DNA of 64,000 nt from an uncultured Cytophagales bacterium. Lineage in GTDB: Bacteria > Bacteroidota > Bacteroidia > Cytophagales > Thermoflexibacteraceae. This document shows, piece by piece, positions 3,150-64,000 of this stretch. The translations under genes and the position numbers were made by a program. Below the pieces are notes generated by a model. It searched no databases, had not been told where the DNA came from, and worked only from the letters and a program-made list of their open reading frames with translations. Positions within the stretch are counted from its first letter, which is position 1. The number at the start of each line of letters is the position of its first letter. Where the stretch lies: assembly GCA_938039675.1 (NCBI GenBank), contig CALHUI010000003.1:496001-560000 (forward strand). The letters are read 5' to 3'.

Positions 3150-4463
3150 TTATTTTATGCAAACCCATGCATGCACCAACTCCATAATGGTAATTTCGGG
3201 CAAAATGCCAATGCGCCCCGGAAAGCCTATGTAGCCAAATCCACGATTGACGTATAAGTATTGACTTTCTTTTTGGTACAACCCTGCCCACTGTTCATAC
3301 ATATATTGTACAGGACTCCATTTGAACGAGCCAACTTCAATGCCAAATTGCATACCATGCGTATGCCCTGCAAACATGATGTCCACATCTTTGTACTGGC
3401 GGCGCACTTCTGCATCCCAGTGGCTGGGGTCGTGTGAAAGCAGCAGTTTAACGGGGGCATCTGCTGTTCCGGCATATGCTTGTTTCATGCTGCCGTATTT
3501 TGGGAAATTGCCTTTAGCACCCCAGTTTTCAATACCTATCACGGCTATTTTTTCGCCGTCGGCTTGCAGGTCAATGTGTTCATTCATCAGCAGCCGCCAG
3601 CCCATGTCGGCATGAATTTGTTTGAGCGTTTGCAGGTTGCGGAACTTTGCCTGCGGGCTTGGCCACTGGCGATAGTCGCCGTAGTCGTGGTTGCCTAATA
3701 CCGAATAAACGCCCATTGGCGCGGTTACTTTTTTGAAAATGTCAAAATAATCGCGCATTTCATCGGCACTGTCGTTTACCAAATCACCGGTAAAGAAAAC
3801 CACATCGGGTTTTTCGTTGAGCAGCATATCTACACCGCCTTGAACGGCTACGCGATTAAAGAAACTGCCAGAGTGAATATCGGACAACTGTCCGATGCGG
3901 ATGCCGTCAAACGCCTTAGGCAGGTTGGGAAGTGCCACGCGCACGCGGCGGATACGGTAGTCATGTGCGCCTGAAACAATGCCAAAACTCATGGTTGCCA
4001 GCGGTACAGCAGCAGCAACCAAACCTGCCTGCATCAAAAATTCGGAGCGGGTAATACCTTTGGGTGCGGGTTCGGGCAGCAGCTCGGCGGGCAATTCTGC
4101 CACGGCTGGTTTAGGCGGACTTTGAGGAAACCATGAAGCTATTTGCGCATAAATCCACTGACCAAGCCGCAGCAAATCGTCTATGGCAATGAACAATACC
4201 GCAAACAGTTTGGAAAAGTAAAACATAAAGCCCCATACCATTACAAAACGGCGGGCGGTAAGCATAGCAGCGGATGCGGGCAGGTACGGATAGATACCCA
4301 AAATGCCGATGGTGAGCAGTGTAAGCGTCCAATAAGTACCGTAAATCATGCGGCGGGTTTGCACCTGTGAGTCTTCCCAAACAATGCGGACAGCCTGAAA
4401 AACATACCAGTCTATTGCCAGCAAAACAGTGGCAATCAGTATGAACGAAAGAATTTTATTCAT
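3150..4463 (-). CDS. Membrane-anchored metallophosphoesterase (calcineurin-like, YkuE type)
   Basis: 437 residues. The first ~110 residues carry about three to four membrane segments. After a linker comes another hydrophobic stretch (AGLVAAAVPLATM) preceded by a SRSEF-like stretch that resembles a twin-arginine-like anchor. The catalytic domain (from about residue 170) has every expected metal-binding motif: LSDIHSG, FTGDLVND, LGNHDYG, LLSHDP and FAGHTHGMQ. Such enzymes act outside the inner membrane on phosphoesters, often lipid-linked; the substrate here is unknown. It follows the sensor kinase by about 130 bases on the same strand and may share its transcript. Confidence 0.9.
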   Translation of the reverse strand: MNKILSFILIATVLLAIDWYVFQAVRIVWEDSQVQTRRMIYGTYWTLTLLTIGILGIYPYLPASAAMLTARRFVMVWGFMFYFSKLFAVLFIAIDDLLRLGQWIYAQIASWFPQSPPKPAVAELPAELLPEPAPKGITRSEFLMQAGLVAAAVPLATMSFGIVSGAHDYRIRRVRVALPNLPKAFDGIRIGQLSDIHSGSFFNRVAVQGGVDMLLNEKPDVVFFTGDLVNDSADEMRDYFDIFKKVTAPMGVYSVLGNHDYGDYRQWPSPQAKFRNLQTLKQIHADMGWRLLMNEHIDLQADGEKIAVIGIENWGAKGNFPKYGSMKQAYAGTADAPVKLLLSHDPSHWDAEVRRQYKDVDIMFAGHTHGMQFGIEVGSFKWSPVQYMYEQWAGLYQKESQYLYVNRGFGYIGFPGRIGILPEITIMELVHAWVCIK

Positions 4464-21961: not shown

Positions 21962-23260
21962 TTACTGCACTATCAACTTTCTGACAGCTGTTTGCCCATT
22001 TGTGAATAAGACTTTAACCAGATAGCTGCCTTTGCTGAGGCGGGTGGAAGTAACAGGTCGCAGACCTTGCGAGGTAAGTTCAAAGTTGGTGCAAAACTCC
22101 TGCAAACGCCCCGAAAGGTCGTAGATGGCAAGCAATCTTACTTCTTCGCTTTTCATATTTAGGAAAAAGCCGTTGCCTTTGTCCGGATTGGGATATACCG
22201 ACAAGTAACTTGCCGGACTCAGGTTTACCTGTACGGAAACTGTTCTACTGTAAGAAATGCTGCCGTCAAAGTCGGTTTGTTTGAGGCGGTAATAGCTGAT
22301 ACCGTGCAGAGGCGCAGTATCGGCAATGTCGTAGGAAATAACAGCATCGCTGTTGCCTGCCCCGCGTATGCGTTGCATTTCTTTGAAGTTTTCTCCGTCT
22401 GCGGAGCGCTCAATGGTGAAGAAATCGTTGTCTATTTCGCGGGCAGTTGTCCAACGCAGGGCTACATACGGCTCACGGCTGCCTTCATGCTGTTGCACAA
22501 AGGCCTCAAAACTGACCAAGGTGATGGGCAGAGGAGTTACAATGGCAATGCATCCGGGTTGCCCTCCCGGAGGAGCTGCACTTTGCCGCTGGATGGAACT
22601 ATCGGCGCAGGCCGCGCAGGTTATACAGTAAATAAGAGTGCCTGTATTTGAAAGGGGGGCATTTATATTATCACAAGTTCCTCTGTTATCGAAAAGATTG
22701 GGATTGCCACCGACAGTACCACAGTTCCTTACATTAAAGAATCCTGCCGTACCGCCAACAGCAATTGTATTACCATTGTTTGCACTTGCCCATCCACCCC
22801 ATACATCTACAATGGCAGCATTAATAACAGAAAGCGTACTGCTATTACCACTGATAAAATATACTTTGTTATTCGATGCGCCAACAGGGCCGACATTTAA
22901 GCGAGTATTCGCACCTGTAACGGTTAGCACAGAATTGTTGATAACTCCCAAAACATTTACAGTTCCTGAACTCAACCGTACGTTGCTGCTGATAACCACG
23001 CAGTCATTAGGCCCGGCAAGGGTCTTGCCTGTGCAGCCTGCACCACCTGAGGTAGTCCATGTTGCTGCATCTGTCCATTCGCGTACAGCCGGATTACTGC
23101 CACCTGTCGGGCGACTGGTAAAAGTACATGAACAACTCTGTGCATATAACTCTGCAACGCCACCTATTACGAACATGACAGTCAGTAACACAAACGAAAA
23201 AAAGCAGTATATTCGTAGTTTTTTGCAGCGTGTAAGAGAAGGTTGTATTAGTTGTACCAT
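21962..23260 (-). CDS. T9SS-exported surface protein with type A sorting domain
   Basis: 432 residues from the ATG at 23260 (an in-frame GTG 21 bases upstream is less likely). A signal peptide or signal anchor (FFSFVLLTVMFVIGG...YAQS) precedes a cysteine-rich, low-complexity N-terminal region. A run of short beta strands (residues ~55-190; repeated V-x-V-x-N patterns such as SGTVNVLGVINNSVLTV) suggests a right-handed beta-helix or G8-like fold. A fibronectin-like segment follows (VALRWTTAREIDNDFFTIERS). The last ~80 residues are a type A CTD (LSVYPNP...GSYLVKVLFTNG...RKLIVQ) that directs export through the T9SS and anchoring to the cell surface. Confidence 0.88.
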   Translation of the reverse strand: MVQLIQPSLTRCKKLRIYCFFSFVLLTVMFVIGGVAELYAQSCSCTFTSRPTGGSNPAVREWTDAATWTTSGGAGCTGKTLAGPNDCVVISSNVRLSSGTVNVLGVINNSVLTVTGANTRLNVGPVGASNNKVYFISGNSSTLSVINAAIVDVWGGWASANNGNTIAVGGTAGFFNVRNCGTVGGNPNLFDNRGTCDNINAPLSNTGTLIYCITCAACADSSIQRQSAAPPGGQPGCIAIVTPLPITLVSFEAFVQQHEGSREPYVALRWTTAREIDNDFFTIERSADGENFKEMQRIRGAGNSDAVISYDIADTAPLHGISYYRLKQTDFDGSISYSRTVSVQVNLSPASYLSVYPNPDKGNGFFLNMKSEEVRLLAIYDLSGRLQEFCTNFELTSQGLRPVTSTRLSKGSYLVKVLFTNGQTAVRKLIVQ

Positions 23261-38663: not shown

Positions 38664-39113
38664 ATGATAAACAATTTACTACGCAAGTTTCTTTTATTTG
38701 TTCTTTTGCTTGTCGGGCAGGGCTTATATGCTTTAAGTAAAGCCCCTCTTGATAGTAATTATTCATTTAAATGCTTAAATCTATCAGTTTCTCCTATAAC
38801 AAACAACTCCCCTTTGTCGGAGAAAGCGGACGACAATTGGCTTTATGTAAGCGACCAAGTTACCATATCCAATATCTATCCTAATCCCGCATCGGATAAC
38901 GCTTCTTTCAACTATATTTTTTATGATACCCAAATAAGCGTAAAGGTAGTAGTGCGCAATGTTTTGGGCAGTATTGTTGGCGAATATACCTTGCCTGCTC
39001 AAGAGCGCCAACTGACCCTGCCGGTTGACCGCTTCATTCCGGGTGTTTACTTTTATACTTTGTGGGTAAACAATAAAAGCGTTGTTACCAAAAAACTCAT
39101 TGTCAAGCGCTAA
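38664..39113 (+). CDS. Very small T9SS cargo protein with type A sorting tail
   Basis: 149 residues. A signal peptide (FLLFVLLLVGQGLYALS) is followed by about 40 unremarkable residues and then the sorting domain: ISNIYPNPASDNASFNY, RNVLGSIVGEYTLP, then GVYFYTLWVNNKSVVTKKLIVKR at the end. Almost the whole mature protein is the export signal itself, so the passenger is only a short peptide. It may be a real tiny surface protein or the remnant of a larger one that has lost its front domains. The gene stands alone between the POT transporter (divergent) and uvrA. Confidence 0.85.
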   Translation: MINNLLRKFLLFVLLLVGQGLYALSKAPLDSNYSFKCLNLSVSPITNNSPLSEKADDNWLYVSDQVTISNIYPNPASDNASFNYIFYDTQISVKVVVRNVLGSIVGEYTLPAQERQLTLPVDRFIPGVYFYTLWVNNKSVVTKKLIVKR

Positions 39114-54599: not shown

Positions 54600-54747
54600 A
54601 TCTTCTTACTTGCTGATAAGCAATAACTTAAATAATAGGCATGTTAAGGTTAGGTTGCAATGATGCAAAAAATGTTCATACTTGATTCATTTTTTGCCTA
54701 AACCGATTAGATTTAGGGCAACCAAACTTAAACAAAATTATCTTGCT

Positions 54748-57741
54748 ATGAAGTTTTCTACGTTCAATCATGTCATCCGCTATTGGGGCGCACTTGCACT
54801 TTTGTGGATGGTCAACATTGCCCATGCACAGTACACGGTGCAGGGAACGGTCAAAGATGCTGCTAATGGCAGCCCTCTGCCCGGTGTAAATATTGTGGTA
54901 AAAGGCACCACGGCAGGTACTATTTCCGATGCCAACGGCTCCTACCGCATCAATGTGGGCAGCAGCGGCTCTGCAACGTTGGTTTTCTCTTACATCGGTT
55001 ATCTGTCCAAATCGGTTGAGGTAAATGAAAACAGCGGTACGGTGGATGTATTGCTGGCAGAAGATGTTACCAAACTGGAAGAGGTAGTAATTACAGGTTT
55101 GGCCTCTTCTGTAAAGAGAAGTAACCTTGCCAATGCGGTTTCTACGGTTTCTGCCAAAGAACTGATTGGTACTACGCAAATTCAAACAGTTGATAATGCG
55201 CTGTACGGTAAACTGACGGGTGTCAATATCAACTTAAACAGCGGTGCGCCCGGTGGCGGTGTTTCCGTGCAACTGCGTGGTATCTCTTCGCTGGTAGGTG
55301 CTTCGCAACCCCTCTACATTGTAGATGGTGTGTACGTAAACAACGCTACTAACCGTACCGGTCGTGCTGCCGTATCAGGTGCAGAAGCCGGTGCCGGTGT
55401 GGGTGCACAAGACGATGCTCCCAACCGCTTGGCTGACTTGAACCCTAACGATATTGAGAGCATTGAAGTTTTGAAAGGTCCTTCTGCTGCTGCTATCTAC
55501 GGTACGCGTGCCAATGCGGGCGTAATCATTATCACCACCAAAAAAGGTTCGGCAGGTCGTACAAAAATCTCATTTGCACAAGATGCAGGTTTTGCCCGTG
55601 CACAGCGATTATTGGGCGTAGATGATTGGAACGAAGCTAAAATCAACTTCTTTTTCCCGGATGCCCGTCGTCAGGTAGAATTAGACCGATTCCGCGCCGC
55701 TGCTGGTCAGAAATATGACTACGAAAAATACTTTTACGGCAATACTGCCACATTGCTCAATACTCGTTTGAGCGTATCGGGCGGTAATGAAAAAACCAAG
55801 TTCATGGTGTCTGGTGCGCTGACTGATGAAGAGGGTATCGTTCGTCGTACAGGATTTAAGCGCTACTCGCTACGCGTCAATATCGACCACAAAATTTCAG
55901 ACCGCGTTTCTTTCGGCGTAGGTTCTAACTATATCCGCACCAATACCGACCGCGGTTTTACGGGCAACCAGAACAACACAGGTGCAAGTATTGGTTATAA
56001 CATTGCTTATGTTCCGAACTACTTCAACTTGTTCCCCAATGAAAACGGCGTATATCCTGATAACCCGTACTTTGCGGAAAATCCCATTGCCGTAACCAAT
56101 AAAGGTATTAATAATTCGGTGGTAGACCGTTTCATTCAATCATTCAACTTTGGTGCAGACCTGTTGAAGACCGATAAGTCGCTCCTGAAATTTGTGGCAC
56201 AAGGCGGCTTAGACTTTACGCAAAACGCTACATTGGTTTACTTGCCTGAAGACTTGCAGTATCAGCGTGCACAGGCAAATCCCGGTGATGCGCTTTGGGG
56301 GGAAACTCGCAATGTAAATACCAACATCCAGGCAGCTTTGACCTATAACTTCAATATAGGTAAAGTAAATATGAACTCTCAGGCAGGTACAGTTCGCCTG
56401 AATTTTTTTGAAAACAGCTTGTTGACCCGTGCTCGCGGTTTGGCTCCCGGCCAGAAAAACCTGCGTCAAGGAACAGTGCAAGAAATCTTTCAAGCACTGC
56501 AAAGCAGCATTACCGATGTAGGCATATTTGCGCAGCAGGAAGCCAACTGGGATGACAAAGTAATAGCTACTGTAGGTATTCGTTGGGATAAATCAACCCT
56601 CAACGGCGATGCCAACAAGTTCTATGCTTTCCCCAAAGCCTCATTGGCTGTAAACGTTGCCAACTTCGATTTCTGGACATTTAAAGAAACCATCAACCAA
56701 ATTAAGCCGCGCATTGCCTACGGCGAAACCGCAGGCTTACCTGCCTTCGGACAAACCTTTACAGCATTGAATGCAGCTAACATTGGTGGTTTTTTGGGTT
56801 CTGTGGTTACCACAGCCGCAGGTAATACTTCTCTTGAACCGGAACGTGCCGGCGAACTAGAATTTGGCATTGATGCAGGCTTGTTTAATAATCGCATCCA
56901 ATTGGAGATAACTTATTACAACAAAGAAACTCGCAACAACATCCAAAACCTAAGCCTTGCGCCATCTACCGGTATCAACACCATTCCAAGCAACCGCGCT
57001 TCACTTTCCAATAAAGGTTGGGAAATTTCACTGGGTGCAACCCCTGTGCAATCAGACAATTTCCGCTGGTTTACTCGCCTAATGTATTGGCAAAATCGGC
57101 TGCTGACCAAGAGCTTGGGCATTCCCGCATACTTTCAAGGAGGTTTCGGTACAGCACTTGGTACGTTCTGGATTCGCGAGGGCATTTCGCCTACTACCAT
57201 CGTAGGTACGCCACAGGTTTCTCCGGGTGTATTTACTATCTGGGGCGACCAGCAACCTAAATTCCAAATGTCATGGTTTAATGAAATTACTTTCCTGAAA
57301 AACTTTGATTTCAATATGCTTTGGCATTGGAAGCAAGGCGGCGACAATATCAACCTGTCAGCCTTTTTAACCGACTCAGGCGGTACTACCCCGGGTTGGT
57401 TTAACGATGATGACGGCGATGGTATTCCTAACGGTCGTCAGCGTCCGCCTGCACCTTTCAACAACGCCGGTCGTTGGGTGCAAGATGCCAGCTATATTCG
57501 CCTGCGCGAAATTGCTTTGTACTACAACGTTCCTAAAACCACATTGACTAACTGGTTCGACGATAAAGTAGGCAGAGTCCGTTTAGGTGTATCAGCCAAC
57601 AACCCCCTTACCTTTACTAAATATGAAGGTTACGACCCTGAAACCTCCACTTTTGGTCAGCGCTCTATCGGCTCAGGTATAGATGTTACCCCATATCCAA
57701 CCTCTAAGCGCTTCTTTGGACATTTGATTGTAGAATTCTAA
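54748..57741 (+). CDS. SusC/RagA-type TonB-dependent outer-membrane transporter
   Basis: 997 residues from the ATG at 54748, which opens on a signal peptide ending WMVNIAHAQ. A carboxypeptidase-D-like domain (VQGTVKDAANGSPLPGV) and a TonB-box-like stretch (LEEVVITGLASS) precede the plug, with TYGTRANAGVIIITTKKG-like QYGTRANAGVIIITTKKG. A large beta-barrel follows, ending in HLIVEF, a normal terminal beta-signal with a final phenylalanine. It imports a nutrient bound by the SusD partner. The substrate is unknown; the neighbours give no glycan-degrading enzyme. Confidence 0.94.
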   Translation: MKFSTFNHVIRYWGALALLWMVNIAHAQYTVQGTVKDAANGSPLPGVNIVVKGTTAGTISDANGSYRINVGSSGSATLVFSYIGYLSKSVEVNENSGTVDVLLAEDVTKLEEVVITGLASSVKRSNLANAVSTVSAKELIGTTQIQTVDNALYGKLTGVNINLNSGAPGGGVSVQLRGISSLVGASQPLYIVDGVYVNNATNRTGRAAVSGAEAGAGVGAQDDAPNRLADLNPNDIESIEVLKGPSAAAIYGTRANAGVIIITTKKGSAGRTKISFAQDAGFARAQRLLGVDDWNEAKINFFFPDARRQVELDRFRAAAGQKYDYEKYFYGNTATLLNTRLSVSGGNEKTKFMVSGALTDEEGIVRRTGFKRYSLRVNIDHKISDRVSFGVGSNYIRTNTDRGFTGNQNNTGASIGYNIAYVPNYFNLFPNENGVYPDNPYFAENPIAVTNKGINNSVVDRFIQSFNFGADLLKTDKSLLKFVAQGGLDFTQNATLVYLPEDLQYQRAQANPGDALWGETRNVNTNIQAALTYNFNIGKVNMNSQAGTVRLNFFENSLLTRARGLAPGQKNLRQGTVQEIFQALQSSITDVGIFAQQEANWDDKVIATVGIRWDKSTLNGDANKFYAFPKASLAVNVANFDFWTFKETINQIKPRIAYGETAGLPAFGQTFTALNAANIGGFLGSVVTTAAGNTSLEPERAGELEFGIDAGLFNNRIQLEITYYNKETRNNIQNLSLAPSTGINTIPSNRASLSNKGWEISLGATPVQSDNFRWFTRLMYWQNRLLTKSLGIPAYFQGGFGTALGTFWIREGISPTTIVGTPQVSPGVFTIWGDQQPKFQMSWFNEITFLKNFDFNMLWHWKQGGDNINLSAFLTDSGGTTPGWFNDDDGDGIPNGRQRPPAPFNNAGRWVQDASYIRLREIALYYNVPKTTLTNWFDDKVGRVRLGVSANNPLTFTKYEGYDPETSTFGQRSIGSGIDVTPYPTSKRFFGHLIVEF

Positions 57742-57763
57742 GCAGTTAAATATTTTGAAAACT

Positions 57764-59137
57764 ATGTTGAAAAAAACAATATACGCGGGTCTTTTAATCG
57801 TTGCCCTATTAGGTAACAGCGGTTGCAGTTTTTTTACGTTGGAAAATGCAATTGACCCCAACAACCCTTCTTTGCAAAGCGTTTCTCAAAACGCTACACG
57901 CAATCAGATTCAATCTTTGATTACGGGTTTGGAATTTCGCCACCGTGCGCATGTTTTTACTGTTACGGCTGCATTCGGCTGTTTCGGCCGCGAGATATGG
58001 TATTTGAACGCTTCTGACCCGCGCTGGCAAACAGATTGGCTTGGACAAGGTGGACGTAAGCCGGATGGTCAGTTTTTTGCCGTTGGGCCTGCCTACGACG
58101 TACCCTATCAGACCATCAAGCAAGGTAATGTGTTGCTCCAAGCCATACGCAATACCAACGTACTGACTGAACAGGAACGCTTGGCTGTCAGCGGTTTCAC
58201 CAAAACCATTCAGGCATATCAGTACATGATTGTGGCCAACGGACAGTTTCAAAACGGTATCCGTATTGATGTAGCCGATGAATTAAACCCGGGCCCGTTT
58301 GTTCCTTACAATGAAGCACTGACCCGCATCAATGCCTTGCTGAATGAGGCTAACGATGAGTTGAGCCGTGCAGGAACAGGCAACTTCCCCTTTCGACTGA
58401 CTGCGGGCTTTACTGCCAATAACTTTGGTACAATTGCCTCTATCCGCCAGTTTAACCGTGCAGTTGCAGCCCGTTTAGCAGTGTACCGCCAAGATTGGCA
58501 AGGTGCGCTTACAGCTCTTGGGCAGTCATTTATGAACATCGACGGCGACTTGGAAGCCGGCCCTGCATTTGTATATGGTGCACCACCCGATATTTTCAAT
58601 CCGCTGTTTTTCGTATTGAATGCACCCGTTAATACGATGATTGTAGTGCATCCGTCGCTAATTAGCGATGCACTGCCCGGCGATTTGCGCGTACAGCGCA
58701 AGTTCTTCCGCCGCAATTCGCCTGTGGTGGTTACCACCGATAACATCCCCTTGTCGGGCGAATGGCAAGACTTGCGTTATCCGACCAACACCACGCCCGT
58801 CAAGTATTTGCGCAACGAAGAACTGGTGTTGATTTATGCAGAAGCTAACGCACAGGCAGGAAACAGCGGAGAGGCTGTACGCGCTATCAACCGCATACGC
58901 ACCGCGGCAGGCTTACCAGCCTATACAGGCGCTACTACACGCGATGCACTTATCAACGAGATTCTGTTCCAACGCCGCTACTCCCTGTGGTGCGAGCCTT
59001 GGGGGCATCGCTGGGTAGATGCACGTCGTTATAATCGACTCAACGAAATTCCGGTGGCATTAGACAGAGGCACTGTATTTACACAGTTAGAACGCCCGAT
59101 TGCCGAAGTAAACTGGGAGTTGTTGCAAGGTAGATAA
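57764..59137 (+). CDS. SusD/RagB-family surface lipoprotein
   Basis: 457 residues. The lipoprotein signal is MLKKTIYAGLLIVALLGNSGC. Typical SusD segments: DPNNPSLQSV, a TPR-rich helical scaffold (ALTRINALLNEANDELSRAG, FNRAVAARLAVYRQDWQGAL), and the C-terminal motifs RYPTNTTPVKYLRNEELVLIYAEANA and RNRIRTAAGLPAYTG. It sits 22 bases after the SusC gene and caps that barrel like a pedal-bin lid to trap the ligand. It is shorter than many SusD proteins and lacks a neighbouring polysaccharide lyase or hydrolase, so a peptide or small nutrient is possible. Confidence 0.92.
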   Translation: MLKKTIYAGLLIVALLGNSGCSFFTLENAIDPNNPSLQSVSQNATRNQIQSLITGLEFRHRAHVFTVTAAFGCFGREIWYLNASDPRWQTDWLGQGGRKPDGQFFAVGPAYDVPYQTIKQGNVLLQAIRNTNVLTEQERLAVSGFTKTIQAYQYMIVANGQFQNGIRIDVADELNPGPFVPYNEALTRINALLNEANDELSRAGTGNFPFRLTAGFTANNFGTIASIRQFNRAVAARLAVYRQDWQGALTALGQSFMNIDGDLEAGPAFVYGAPPDIFNPLFFVLNAPVNTMIVVHPSLISDALPGDLRVQRKFFRRNSPVVVTTDNIPLSGEWQDLRYPTNTTPVKYLRNEELVLIYAEANAQAGNSGEAVRAINRIRTAAGLPAYTGATTRDALINEILFQRRYSLWCEPWGHRWVDARRYNRLNEIPVALDRGTVFTQLERPIAEVNWELLQGR

Positions 59138-59253: not shown

Positions 59254-60969
59254 GTGTCGCCCATAGATTGGTTTGTTCTTATTTTTACGATAGGCTTTAT
59301 CACTGCCTATGGCATTTGGAAAACACGTGGAAGTAAAAACACCAAAGAGTACCTCCTTTCCAAAAAAATGAATTGGGGCACTATCGGGCTTTCTATCATG
59401 GCTACGCAGGCGAGTGCTATTACCTTCCTAAGCACTCCCGGGCAGGCTTACTCCGATGGTATGCGCTTTGTACAGTTCTACTTTGGCCTGCCATTGGCTA
59501 TGGTTGTACTTTGTATGACCGCCGTTCCTTTATACCAGCGTTTGAATGTTTACACGGCCTATGAGTTTTTGGAAAAACGCTTTGATGTCAAGACCCGTTC
59601 GCTTGGTGCTTTCCTGTTCTTGATTCAGCGAGGATTGGCTGCAGGGCTTACCATCTATGCACCTGCTTTGGTGCTTTCTACTATCTTAGGCTGGGAAATC
59701 TTTTACGTCAATCTCATTTTGGGCGGAATTGTAGTGCTCTATACTGTGGTAGGTGGTACCGAGGCTGTCAGCATCACCCAAAAACAGCAAATGTTTGTCA
59801 TTTTTATAGGCTTAATGGTCGCTCTGTATATGGTTTTTGCCCTGATGCCGCAAGAAGTAGGTGTTTGGGAGGCAGTACGTGTAGCAGGTAAAGCTGGCAA
59901 ACTGGAAAGTATTGATTTCAGTTTTGACTGGAACAACCGCTATAATATCTGGTCGGGCATCATTGGCGGATTTTTTTTACAATTGTCTTATTTTGGTACC
60001 GACCAGTCGCAAGTACAGCGCTACTTAGGGGGCAAATCAACCACCGAAAGTCGTTTAGGGCTGATTTTCAACGGCTTTATCAAAATTCCGATGCAGTTTC
60101 TCATATTGTTCATCGGGGCTATGGTGTTTGTATTTTACCAATTTCACGAACCGCCCCTATACTTCAATCAGGTAGAGGCAGAAAAAGTGCGCCGTTCGGA
60201 TAACGGCAACGAATTTATTGCATTGGAACAAAAATATCATCAGGTTTTTACTCAAAAACGCGAACAAGCCATTGCTTTAGTAAAAGCATTGAAACAGGGC
60301 GAGCTGCAGCAGATAGACCATGCCAAAGCACAGTTAGATGCACAAAACAACGCAGCCCGCAACATTCGCAACGCAGCCTTAGCCATTATTCACCGACAAA
60401 ATGAAGCAGAAGGCAAAGGCAAATCTAGCGATACGAACTATGTATTTCTCACCTTTGTCATCAACTACCTGCCCAAAGGACTGATTGGGTTGCTCATTGC
60501 ACTTGTCATTTGCGCCTCTATGTCATCTACCTCATCGGAACTCAACGCACTGGCTTCCACAACGGTTATCGACGTGTATAAACGTTCTTTCAGACCAAAT
60601 AAAAGCGAGTCGCACTATCTCAAAGCCTCTCAGTGGATGACCATCGGTTGGGGGGCTTATGCCATCCTGTTTGCCGAATTTGCAAGCTCGTTAAGCAATA
60701 ATTTGATAGAAGCGGTCAATATACTTGGCTCACTTTTTTACGGCACCATACTCGGCATTTTTTTAGTCGCCTTCTATGTCAAAAGCGTAAAAGCAAAGGC
60801 GATTTTTCAGGCAGCCATACTTGCCGAAATAGCAGTACTGTTTTGCTGGAAATTTACAAATATTTCATACCTTTGGTTCAACTTGATTGGCTGTGCAGCG
60901 GTGATTTTGCTGGGGCTGCTGCTGCAACTATTTCATAAGCATCATGCGGATGGTACAAGTTTTGCGTAA
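59254..60969 (+). CDS. Sodium:solute symporter (SSS family)
   Basis: 571 residues, about 13 to 14 membrane segments, starting at a GTG codon (59254). The family signature is in QASAITFLSTPGQAYSDGMRF and GGIVVLYTVVGGTEAVSITQ. A long charged insert of about 80 residues (roughly 300-390, with QVFTQKREQAIALVKALKQG) sits between two segments. Later motifs include IALVICASMSSTSSELNALAS. It moves a solute with sodium across the inner membrane. Following directly on the SusC-SusD operon (but with a terminator between), it may carry the same nutrient across the inner membrane. Confidence 0.9.
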   Translation: MSPIDWFVLIFTIGFITAYGIWKTRGSKNTKEYLLSKKMNWGTIGLSIMATQASAITFLSTPGQAYSDGMRFVQFYFGLPLAMVVLCMTAVPLYQRLNVYTAYEFLEKRFDVKTRSLGAFLFLIQRGLAAGLTIYAPALVLSTILGWEIFYVNLILGGIVVLYTVVGGTEAVSITQKQQMFVIFIGLMVALYMVFALMPQEVGVWEAVRVAGKAGKLESIDFSFDWNNRYNIWSGIIGGFFLQLSYFGTDQSQVQRYLGGKSTTESRLGLIFNGFIKIPMQFLILFIGAMVFVFYQFHEPPLYFNQVEAEKVRRSDNGNEFIALEQKYHQVFTQKREQAIALVKALKQGELQQIDHAKAQLDAQNNAARNIRNAALAIIHRQNEAEGKGKSSDTNYVFLTFVINYLPKGLIGLLIALVICASMSSTSSELNALASTTVIDVYKRSFRPNKSESHYLKASQWMTIGWGAYAILFAEFASSLSNNLIEAVNILGSLFYGTILGIFLVAFYVKSVKAKAIFQAAILAEIAVLFCWKFTNISYLWFNLIGCAAVILLGLLLQLFHKHHADGTSFA

Positions 60970-61075: not shown

Positions 61076-64000
61076 ATGAAATATAGTATATTTACTTTAT
61101 GGTTTATATGTTTCCTTTCTCTTTCGGTGTCTGCACAAATAGATGGTGCAGTACGAATGCGTGGTGGAAAAAATATTACCAATGACCCTGAGGGTTTGGT
61201 TGTACTCGAGCTTTTTGGTCGGGGAGCAACTGAAATGATGATTTCTAATGACCCCAGTTTTCCTAACCAACGTTGGCGACCATACGAAACCTCCATCAAA
61301 TGGCGCTTAAAAACCACCGATGGCGATGGCTTGAAGAACGTTTATGTAATATATAAAGACAATCAGGGCAACGTTTCGGAGGTTGTCGAAACTGTCATAG
61401 AATTAGACCGCCAACCTCCCTTCGACTGCAGCATTACTATTAACGGCGGCGCACGTTTCACCAATGCGCGCGACCGTGTGGTCAGCGTAGAGCTCTACGC
61501 GCAGGAAGCTAAAGAAATGCAGATAAGCCTCAGAAGCGATTTTATCGGTGCGCAGTGGGTGCCCTATGCCGAACGCAGAAAAATGCAATTGTTAGGCGAA
61601 GACGGCGAAAAAATTATTTTTGCACGCTTTCGCGATGCGGCCGGCAACGTATCGCAACCGGTAAGCGCCCGCATTATAATGGATATAGTACCGCCGCTGA
61701 ACCCAAGAGTGCTCATCAACAACGGCGACCAATACACCAATAAAGAAGAAGTAACACTTTTCCTCAGCGCACAAGGGGCAAAAGAGGTATTCATTCGCGG
61801 TGGTTCGGAATGGATGCCGATGCAAAGTACCATTCAGTGGAAATTAGAGCCTCCCGGCGAAGGCGAGCGAGTAGTGCAAGTTCGTTTCCGCGATGAGGCC
61901 GGCAACTATTCGGCTGTTGCCCAAGACGCAATTATTGTTGATACCGAACCGCCGCAAATGCCTCGAGTACTCATAGACGGCGGCAACCGTTTTACTAAGA
62001 GTCAGTCTGTTTCTCTGCGGCTATCTGCTATTGGTGCATTTGAAATGCAAATCAGCAACGACAGTTCCTTTCAAAATGTGGCATGGCGGCCTTACAACGT
62101 AGCGGCAGTATGGACGCTTGCCGAAAAAGACGGCAACCGCCGGGTATATGTCCGTTTCCGCGACCAAGCAGGTAACATCTCTGAGACCGCATGGGCGGAG
62201 ATTATATTAGACAGAGTACCGCCGACCAAGCCTCATGTAGAAATCGTAGGCGACATGTCAAAAATATCCAACGATACAAGTGCTACGGTCAATTTGAAAA
62301 TATCTGCCGAAGGTGCCAAATACATGATGGTAAGCAATACCAGTAATTTTTACAATGCACGCTGGGAAGTTTATCGCACGGAGGTCAAAAACTGGAAACT
62401 CGGAAGCCCGGGTGATGACGGTGAAAAAAGCGTATATGTCAAGTTTCGGGATGAGGCAGGTAATGTTTCCGATATTGCAAGCACCAGAATTAAACTTGAC
62501 CGCACCAAACCGGTTGATTGCCGTATTATCATAGACAACGGTAAAGAATTTACCACGAATCCCAACAAAAAAGTAAACCTGATGCTTTTTGCCAGAGGGG
62601 CTACCGAAATGATGATATCTAACAACAGCACTTTTACAGGCGGCAAGTGGCAGCCGTATGCAACCAGTGTCGAGTGGGAATTAGAAGGTGAAGACGGCTT
62701 GAAAAACGTGGTGGTTAAGTTCCGTGACCAAGCAGGTAATGAGTCTGATGTGGTAGCCGACAATATTATATTAGACCGCAAACCTCCGTTTGATTGCAGT
62801 ATTGTCATCAACAGAGGAGACTCCATTACTAATGACATAGACAAAGTTGTGATATTGAAGGTAAGAGCAAAGCAAGCAGCCCTAATGATGATTTCCAATA
62901 CACCTGATTTTTCGGGCGAACGCTGGCGCGGCTATTCGGAGTTGAATATCAGTTGGGTACTGGCCGGTGCAGACGGTGTAAAAACAGTATATGTCAAGTT
63001 TAAAGACGAGGCCGGCAATGAATCCGCCGTCTATTCCGATGATATTATTCTGGACAGAACACCGCCTAAAAAAGGTTCTGTGAAAATTTTAGCCGAAAAC
63101 CAACAAGTAAAATTCCAACAGGTAAAACTGGAATTAGTCGCTCAGGATGCCGTAGAAATGATGATATCCAATTTTTACGATTTTCGAGGAGCTAAGTGGG
63201 AGCCTTATGCAACAACCAAAGACTGGACGCTCATTGGCGAAGACGGTGTAAAAATGGTATTTGTCAAATTCAAAGACCGGGTAAACAATGTATCAAAGGT
63301 AGCCTATGACCGTATCGGCTTGGATATGACTGCTCCTAAGGGCGGCGATATAAAAATTAACAACGGAGCGCGCTATTGTACCAATATTAATAAGTTGGTA
63401 ACGCTGCGTTTGTCTGTACAAGATGCTACTGAAATGATGATTAGCAATAATAAAGATTTTAAAGATGCCCAATGGCAATACTTTGAAAACTATGTGTATA
63501 ATTGGAAACTGGATGGTGACGATGGCGAAAAACAGGTGTTTGCCAAGTTCCGCGACAAAGCAGGCAATGAAACGCAACCTGTGGTAGCTAACATTATACT
63601 CGACCGTCAGGAGCCTATTAATGAGAAGATTGTTATCAATAACAACGAGGAATGTACTAATGCTGCAAATGGCAGAGTTAAATTGGATATTGAGGTAGAG
63701 GGTGCTAAGGAAATGATGATTAGTAATAACAAATATTTCAACAATGGTGTATGGGAGCCGGTAAGAAAAACCAAAGAATGGAATTTATCGCCGGGCGACG
63801 GTGAAAAAACCATTTATGTGAAGTTTCGGGATGAGGCCGGTAACGAATCGGGTGTTGCCTACGACAATATTTATTTAGATACAGATGCGCCTATACCCGG
63901 ACTGATTAAATTTGCCGGTAATCAAACGATTACGAAAACAACCCTTGTAACGCTCGAGCTCAATGCCCGCAAAGCTAATTATATGATGATTTCTAACTCT
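61076..64000 (+). CDS. Secreted tandem-repeat protein (partial; runs off window)
   Basis: At least 975 residues, open to the right edge. A signal peptide (FICFLSLSVSAQ) is followed at once by ten complete and one partial Ig-like repeats of 86-96 residues. Each unit has EMMISN, then W-x-PY, a W-x-L, DGxK, YVKFRDEAGN and ends in D-x-IILDRxPP. This Ig-like (beta-sandwich) repeat pattern is known from surface proteins that end in a sorting domain or a catalytic module, which here would lie past the window. No catalytic domain is seen so far. Cysteines are few and occur in scattered positions. Confidence 0.85.
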   Translation, partial: MKYSIFTLWFICFLSLSVSAQIDGAVRMRGGKNITNDPEGLVVLELFGRGATEMMISNDPSFPNQRWRPYETSIKWRLKTTDGDGLKNVYVIYKDNQGNVSEVVETVIELDRQPPFDCSITINGGARFTNARDRVVSVELYAQEAKEMQISLRSDFIGAQWVPYAERRKMQLLGEDGEKIIFARFRDAAGNVSQPVSARIIMDIVPPLNPRVLINNGDQYTNKEEVTLFLSAQGAKEVFIRGGSEWMPMQSTIQWKLEPPGEGERVVQVRFRDEAGNYSAVAQDAIIVDTEPPQMPRVLIDGGNRFTKSQSVSLRLSAIGAFEMQISNDSSFQNVAWRPYNVAAVWTLAEKDGNRRVYVRFRDQAGNISETAWAEIILDRVPPTKPHVEIVGDMSKISNDTSATVNLKISAEGAKYMMVSNTSNFYNARWEVYRTEVKNWKLGSPGDDGEKSVYVKFRDEAGNVSDIASTRIKLDRTKPVDCRIIIDNGKEFTTNPNKKVNLMLFARGATEMMISNNSTFTGGKWQPYATSVEWELEGEDGLKNVVVKFRDQAGNESDVVADNIILDRKPPFDCSIVINRGDSITNDIDKVVILKVRAKQAALMMISNTPDFSGERWRGYSELNISWVLAGADGVKTVYVKFKDEAGNESAVYSDDIILDRTPPKKGSVKILAENQQVKFQQVKLELVAQDAVEMMISNFYDFRGAKWEPYATTKDWTLIGEDGVKMVFVKFKDRVNNVSKVAYDRIGLDMTAPKGGDIKINNGARYCTNINKLVTLRLSVQDATEMMISNNKDFKDAQWQYFENYVYNWKLDGDDGEKQVFAKFRDKAGNETQPVVANIILDRQEPINEKIVINNNEECTNAANGRVKLDIEVEGAKEMMISNNKYFNNGVWEPVRKTKEWNLSPGDGEKTIYVKFRDEAGNESGVAYDNIYLDTDAPIPGLIKFAGNQTITKTTLVTLELNARKANYMMISNS
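61136..64000 (+). repeat. Tandem coding repeats, about 276 bases each, 10 full + 1 partial
   Basis: Unit ends (after the D-x-x-PP or D-x-x-AP/EP motif): 61420, 61696, 61954, 62224, 62512, 62788, 63067, 63337, 63616, 63892. Lengths in residues: 95, 92, 86, 90, 96, 92, 93, 90, 93, 92. Units 6-11 keep the MMISN core almost unchanged; units 2-4 have diverged (MQISL, VFIRG, MQISN). Confidence 0.85.

Follow-up and report, generated by a model that had tools for sequence, protein, structure and literature searches.

The Ig11 gene, located at the end of the stretch of DNA analysed here (the window, 64,000 nucleotides, G000:C3:496001-560000), encodes a signal peptide followed by eleven Ig-like repeats and nothing else. 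The number of repeats is fixed, each repeat has kept its positional identity, the protein family is present in every genome examined of three Cytophagales families, and the gene is under purifying selection. We tentatively propose, with a confidence that stops short of even, that its product is a complete, unanchored chain of eleven non-interchangeable Ig-like domains exported by Sec, which could serve as a rod or scaffold of set length in the cell envelope and which is encoded by a vertically inherited core gene with a shorter companion.

The complete gene and its product

The Ig11 gene starts with an ATG at position 61076 of the forward strand, and its frame is open up to the window end (61076-64000). 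The contig runs on past this point, and the complete frame covers 61076-64165 (1029 amino acids; G000:C3:557076-560165), with the stop codon outside the window at 64163-64165. The same frame is L010:1077-4166, in which the window coordinate equals the L010 coordinate plus 59999, so that the frame end at 4166 is window position 64165. The earlier note, made from the letters of the window, had described the gene as cut by the window edge and its informative C-terminal part as missing. The frame is indeed open at 64000, but the cut hides little, since no more than 54 residues and the stop codon fall outside the window. These residues finish repeat 11, and the C-terminus of the protein (...EITLAYDN) is the last strand of that repeat. 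The idea of a missing informative part was thus refuted, as the stop is reached at 64165 with nothing after repeat 11.

The N-terminus is a signal peptide, MKYSIFTLWFICFLSLSVSA (61076-61135, forward strand), which reads from the sequence as type I (...LSVSA-Q), with no cysteine at the cleavage site. Signal peptides of the signal-peptidase-I type, without a lipobox, were read in the same way in the orthologues, where they end in A/G/S-Q. The rest of the protein consists of 11 repeats of 84-96 amino acids each, delimited with a profile built from its own repeats. Ten of them and part of the eleventh are inside the window, exactly as the earlier note had counted, and these data support an exported, all-Ig repeat protein.

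All the repeats are encoded on the forward strand. Repeats 1 and 2 occupy 61142-61408 (residues 23-111) and 61409-61684 (residues 112-203). Repeat 3 (61691-61942, residues 206-289) is the shortest and lacks the usual MISN...F..A.W segment, while repeat 4 (61946-62212, residues 291-379) is the first of the four that match a 4-repeat paralogue, and repeat 5 (62213-62500, residues 380-475) is the longest. They are followed by repeats 6 (62501-62776, residues 476-567), 7 (62777-63055, residues 568-660), 8 (63056-63325, residues 661-750), 9 (63329-63604, residues 752-843) and 10 (63605-63880, residues 844-935). The first part of repeat 11 is at 63887-64000 and the whole repeat extends to 64150 (residues 938-1025). 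The motifs that had been quoted from the window (EMMISN, W-x-PY, DGxK, YVKFRDEAGN and IILDRxPP) are present and recur across the orthologues.

The architecture of tandem Ig-like repeats behind a signal peptide, already recognised in the earlier note, was confirmed by the sequence, by the repeat profile and by the Pfam family Big_13 (PF19077), which matched seven stretches of the complete protein with 99.6 bits against a gathering score of 27. The OmpL47-type domain model (NF047446) was also above its cut-off (53.9 bits against 40), whereas the full Leptospira OmpL47 equivalog (NF047441) was not (49.4 bits against 250). The Ca_tandemer adhesin repeat (NF033510) scored 35.1 bits, below its cut-off of 50.

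Searches of the complete protein against Pfam and NCBIfam, at E values up to 5, gave no match to the T9SS type A sorting domain (TIGR04183), to the type B domain (gliding-motility-associated C-terminal domain), or to an autotransporter barrel or anchor; for OmpA, RTX and catalytic families they gave nothing but fragments far below the cut-offs. With the stop found soon after position 64000 and no further domain in these searches, the options of a T9SS cargo or an enzyme, which had been left open at the window edge, were contradicted. Elsewhere in the same genome, more than 20 type A sorting tails of the T9SS scored above the cut-off, so the type IX route appears to be in use in this organism, but the Ig11 protein lacks its signal. 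Two type A sorting tails map inside the window itself, at 21965-22198 on the reverse strand and 38874-39107 on the forward strand (G000:C3:517965-518198 and 534874-535107).

The repeats of the Ig11 protein average 42% identity to one another. Their DNA copies have diverged as well (60-82% alike, none near-identical), and TRF reported no tandem array on the coding DNA. Most of the invariant residues are structural Ig positions, e.g. W, D and GN. A disulfide was considered from conserved cysteines and dropped, because the best column had 13 of 17 and none was universal.

The gene has no stops in the four species of the genus. Comparison of the two closest species gave a dN of 0.028 and a dS of 0.276, that is, a dN/dS of 0.10, with values of 0.02-0.26 when the repeats were taken separately. 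Purifying selection acts on an intact gene; with no frameshift and intact orthologues in four species, the decayed gene that the earlier note had raised does not hold. The repeats are not due to chance, because Big_13 matched with 99.6 bits against 27, a repeat pair was modelled with a pLDDT of 96.8, and dN/dS is 0.10.

Fixed repeat number, positional identity and relatives

Orthologues were found in three Cytophagales families (f1, f2 and f18) and include those of the Bernardetiaceae MAGs SKYG123 and SKYG34, plus Cytophagales MAGs. When 18 of them were scanned repeat by repeat, all 18 had 11 repeats (in one, L056, the contig end falls inside the eleventh repeat) and at most 12 amino acids after the last repeat. 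Identity of the orthologues across the three families is about 47%. The protein family was carried by all 42 genomes examined (13/13 in f1, 11/11 in f2 and 18/18 in f18). The full-length profile matched in a single open frame, of 1033-1115 codons from stop to stop, in 38 genomes; the other four comprise a gene cut by a contig end, a gene split over contigs, a fragment, and an incomplete assembly with the 4-repeat protein only.

In the rest of the order, a single match (E up to 1e-30) was found among 390 sampled genomes, a 9-repeat protein in an 860-codon frame of genome G019. At the same threshold, the sample of 395 genomes of the phylum gave none besides the source genome itself. With a looser 4-repeat profile, weak matches also came from one more family in the order and from three genomes in the phylum sample. 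An 11-repeat protein from a Cyclobacteriaceae MAG (L017) was rejected as an orthologue, as its same-position matches were near chance, and its count was not used. Directly upstream of that protein there is a run of PorP/SprF, PD40/OmpA and TPR genes (L017:1779-5764).

Comparisons between families showed that a repeat was matched best by its positional counterpart in 70% (f1-f18), 78% (f1-f2) and 79% (f2-f18) of cases, with 9% expected. Average identity was 36-42% within one protein, 44-45% at the same position between families and 37% at different positions, indicating that each repeat has stayed distinct and that homogenisation has not taken place. In the gene tree each of the three families forms one clade, which fits vertical inheritance and suggests that the eleven-repeat arrangement is older than the split of the three families.

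Shorter relatives accompany the long protein. On contig C13 of the source genome (G000), a gene on the reverse strand (L011:10416-11621) encodes exactly four repeats behind a signal peptide, and nothing else. Matches of this 4-repeat type, in frames of 392-480 codons, came from 41 of the 42 genomes examined in these families, and the 4-repeat protein corresponded to positions 4-7 of the long protein in 16/16 tested. A 2-repeat protein, present in three f1 genomes of three genera (L075:5995-6669, L076:5887-6525 and L077:785-1435), corresponded to positions 10-11 in 3/3. Family f18 has a further all-Ig paralogue of 11 or 15 repeats (15 being 11 + 4), also with nothing after the last repeat (L078-L085).

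Some features of the surroundings of these paralogues were recorded. Within the genus, the 4-repeat gene sits between genes for a TPR protein and a DUF2911-like protein. In one genus of f18, the 11- or 15-repeat paralogue adjoins a TonB-dependent-receptor-like gene. An exported protein of 371-397 amino acids without a Pfam match (L018:4547-5662, with family members in L065 and L070) is kept beside the f18 4-repeat gene. Contig L018 is labelled Thalassovita sp.; its 4-repeat Ig gene has the TPR and 371-amino-acid neighbours seen in f18, which belongs to the Bacteroidota, so that this contig has probably been binned under the wrong label.

Predicted fold and putative calcium sites

The AlphaFold model of a repeat pair reached a pLDDT of 96.8 and a pTM of 0.80. 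The model of the full chain had good local confidence (85.0) and poor global confidence (pTM 0.35), for which reason we claim no arrangement of the domains. Among solved folds, the closest are Ig-like domain chains, namely GhpA, SiiE and MpAFP RII. The best-ranked for several consecutive domains was GhpA (9fls; Z 12.8 over 319 residues, rmsd 5.8), and lower scores were obtained for SiiE (2yn3, Z 8.7; 2yn5, Z 8.0) and MpAFP RII (4p99, Z 8.0). Generic FnIII and Ig chains scored almost as high as these, and the likeness is therefore taken as a resemblance of fold only. A sequence search of the PDB with the Ig11 protein gave no match at E values up to 0.1, and a search with the repeat-pair profile gave marginal matches only (SiiE, E 0.083; Bap, E 0.082). 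A literature search aimed at such a protein found no description of it.

SiiE of Salmonella and the RII extender of MpAFP are BIg rods rigidified by Ca2+, and the Ig11 repeats share their BIg-type sandwich. The type I calcium site of SiiE is made up of three Asp, one at the C-terminus of a domain and two in the domain that follows it (PMC5466336). At 180 domain interfaces of the Ig11 family, the C-terminal Asp was present in 174 and the FG-loop Asp in 175, so that two of the three acids are kept at about 97% of the interfaces each, as far as sequence can tell. The FG-loop correspondence comes from a profile alignment to SiiE; the third Ca2+ ligand position, mapped by our own reading of the same alignment, is acidic at 85 of the 180 interfaces, about half. 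Calcium binding at the domain interfaces is plausible on this pattern. Four MpAFP RII repeats span about 190 A (PMC4083281), and the eleven shorter domains of Ig11, if straight, would form a rod of ~45-50 nm at 4-4.7 nm per domain.

Possible roles in the cell envelope

We infer that the Ig11 protein would be exported by Sec and would by default be periplasmic, because it has a signal peptide and no outer-membrane sorting signal. Judging from the predicted fold and from the solved relatives MpAFP RII and SiiE, it could form an extended rod, and it may act as a scaffold whose different domains do different jobs. Its gene would be a core gene of three Cytophagales families, passed on vertically, and the shorter companion would be built of the equivalent of domains 4-7. 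The locked number of unlike domains, the universal presence and the vertical descent are easier to reconcile with a structural or scaffold role in the envelope than with a phase-variable adhesin.

The main rival, which we consider somewhat unlikely, is an adhesin or matrix protein, secreted or at the surface, whose export route went unrecognised; the last Ig-like domain could, for example, hold an atypical sorting signal. Tandem arrays of Big_13 and BIg domains are characteristic of adhesins (PMC9704523), the grappling-hook protein GhpA and the adhesin SiiE are among the best solved folds, and the source genome has T9SS cargo tails; moreover, a protein with a signal peptide may reach the surface even when it has no known tail. 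However, at E values up to 5 no sorting domain of type A or B was found in the Ig11 protein, nor an RTX tail, an autotransporter barrel or an anchor. It has no distinct tip domain, and it differs from variable-length adhesins in the fixed number and the divergence of its repeats and in its universal presence.

Big_13 was among the Pfam families picked out by the survey of Periscope proteins, which have near-identical tandem repeats, often in variable number, with a tip and an anchor (PMC9704523). Ig11 shares with these Big_13 (PF19077) surface rods the tandem Big_13 Ig-like domains in one chain and a predicted rod-like shape, but its repeats are far from near-identical (42% on average, without a TRF array), its count is fixed (11 in 18/18 orthologues) rather than variable, and it has neither tip nor anchor. 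SiiE (53 BIg domains) and MpAFP (about 120 RII repeats) are giant adhesins that rely on a C-terminal signal for type I secretion; no such features were found in Ig11. GhpA comes from Aureispira, a member of the Bacteroidota. It is a T9SS-secreted heptameric hook protein (PMC11205867) of about 5000 residues by PDB titles (9fls, 9fly and others), while Ig11 lacks a T9SS tail; identity between the two is 6-15%, a common fold only.

A molecular ruler or strut of the envelope, that is, a stiff rod of eleven unlike Ig domains setting a distance or a lattice in the periplasm or at the surface, is a doubtful reading. The count would then have been held since before the three Cytophagales families diverged, and the shorter partner would be equivalent to the centre of the rod.

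It also seems unlikely that the protein is a periplasmic multi-domain binding hub, acting as a chaperone or as an assembly platform for outer-membrane complexes, in which every Ig-like domain would bind its own partner and the length of the rod would not matter in itself. Filamin-like hubs offer a general precedent, each Ig11 domain is conserved by position, and the shorter versions keep domains 4-7 or 10-11. Nevertheless, no conserved partner gene was found next to the Ig11 orthologues, most of the invariant residues are structural Ig positions, and no conserved pocket was identified. No family was clearly enriched at the adjacent position: TPR was found in 4 of 74 adjacent proteins, against none in the list for 61 proteins three genes away, and OmpA appeared only in the list for that distant set. 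TPR or PD40/OmpA neighbours were rejected as a weak functional clue, given counts without clear enrichment. In one genus, PD40/OmpA genes adjoin the 11-repeat gene in L045 (3730-5814) and L056 (3406-5787) and are near it in L046 (6143-8476).

Upstream of the Ig11 gene and on the same strand are the genes for SusC (54682-57741), SusD (57755-59137) and, directly adjacent, a sodium:solute symporter (59254-60969), in the order given by the earlier note and with the symporter identified by Pfam SSF. The gap of 106 bp between the co-directional symporter and Ig11 genes, and an adjacency conserved in six genomes from three genera, namely in four species of the genus and in two further genera of the same family, would suit an accessory protein of this uptake module. 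The adjacency does not extend further: elsewhere in the family and in both other families the orthologues are beside unrelated genes, and such a role is very improbable. A T9SS cargo, an enzyme or a decayed gene had nothing more in its favour than a window that cuts through the gene, and can be practically discarded for a complete gene with no such domain and under purifying selection.

Bacterial Ig-like arrays are usually taken as adhesin stalks of variable length. The envelope rod or scaffold that we tentatively favour has a number and order of domains that are locked, lineage-wide and vertically inherited, with neither tip nor anchor, which suggests that such chains may also be core parts of the envelope. 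The Ig11 gene would be a clean test case, as it encodes no domain other than the chain and has a ready 4-domain companion in the same genomes.
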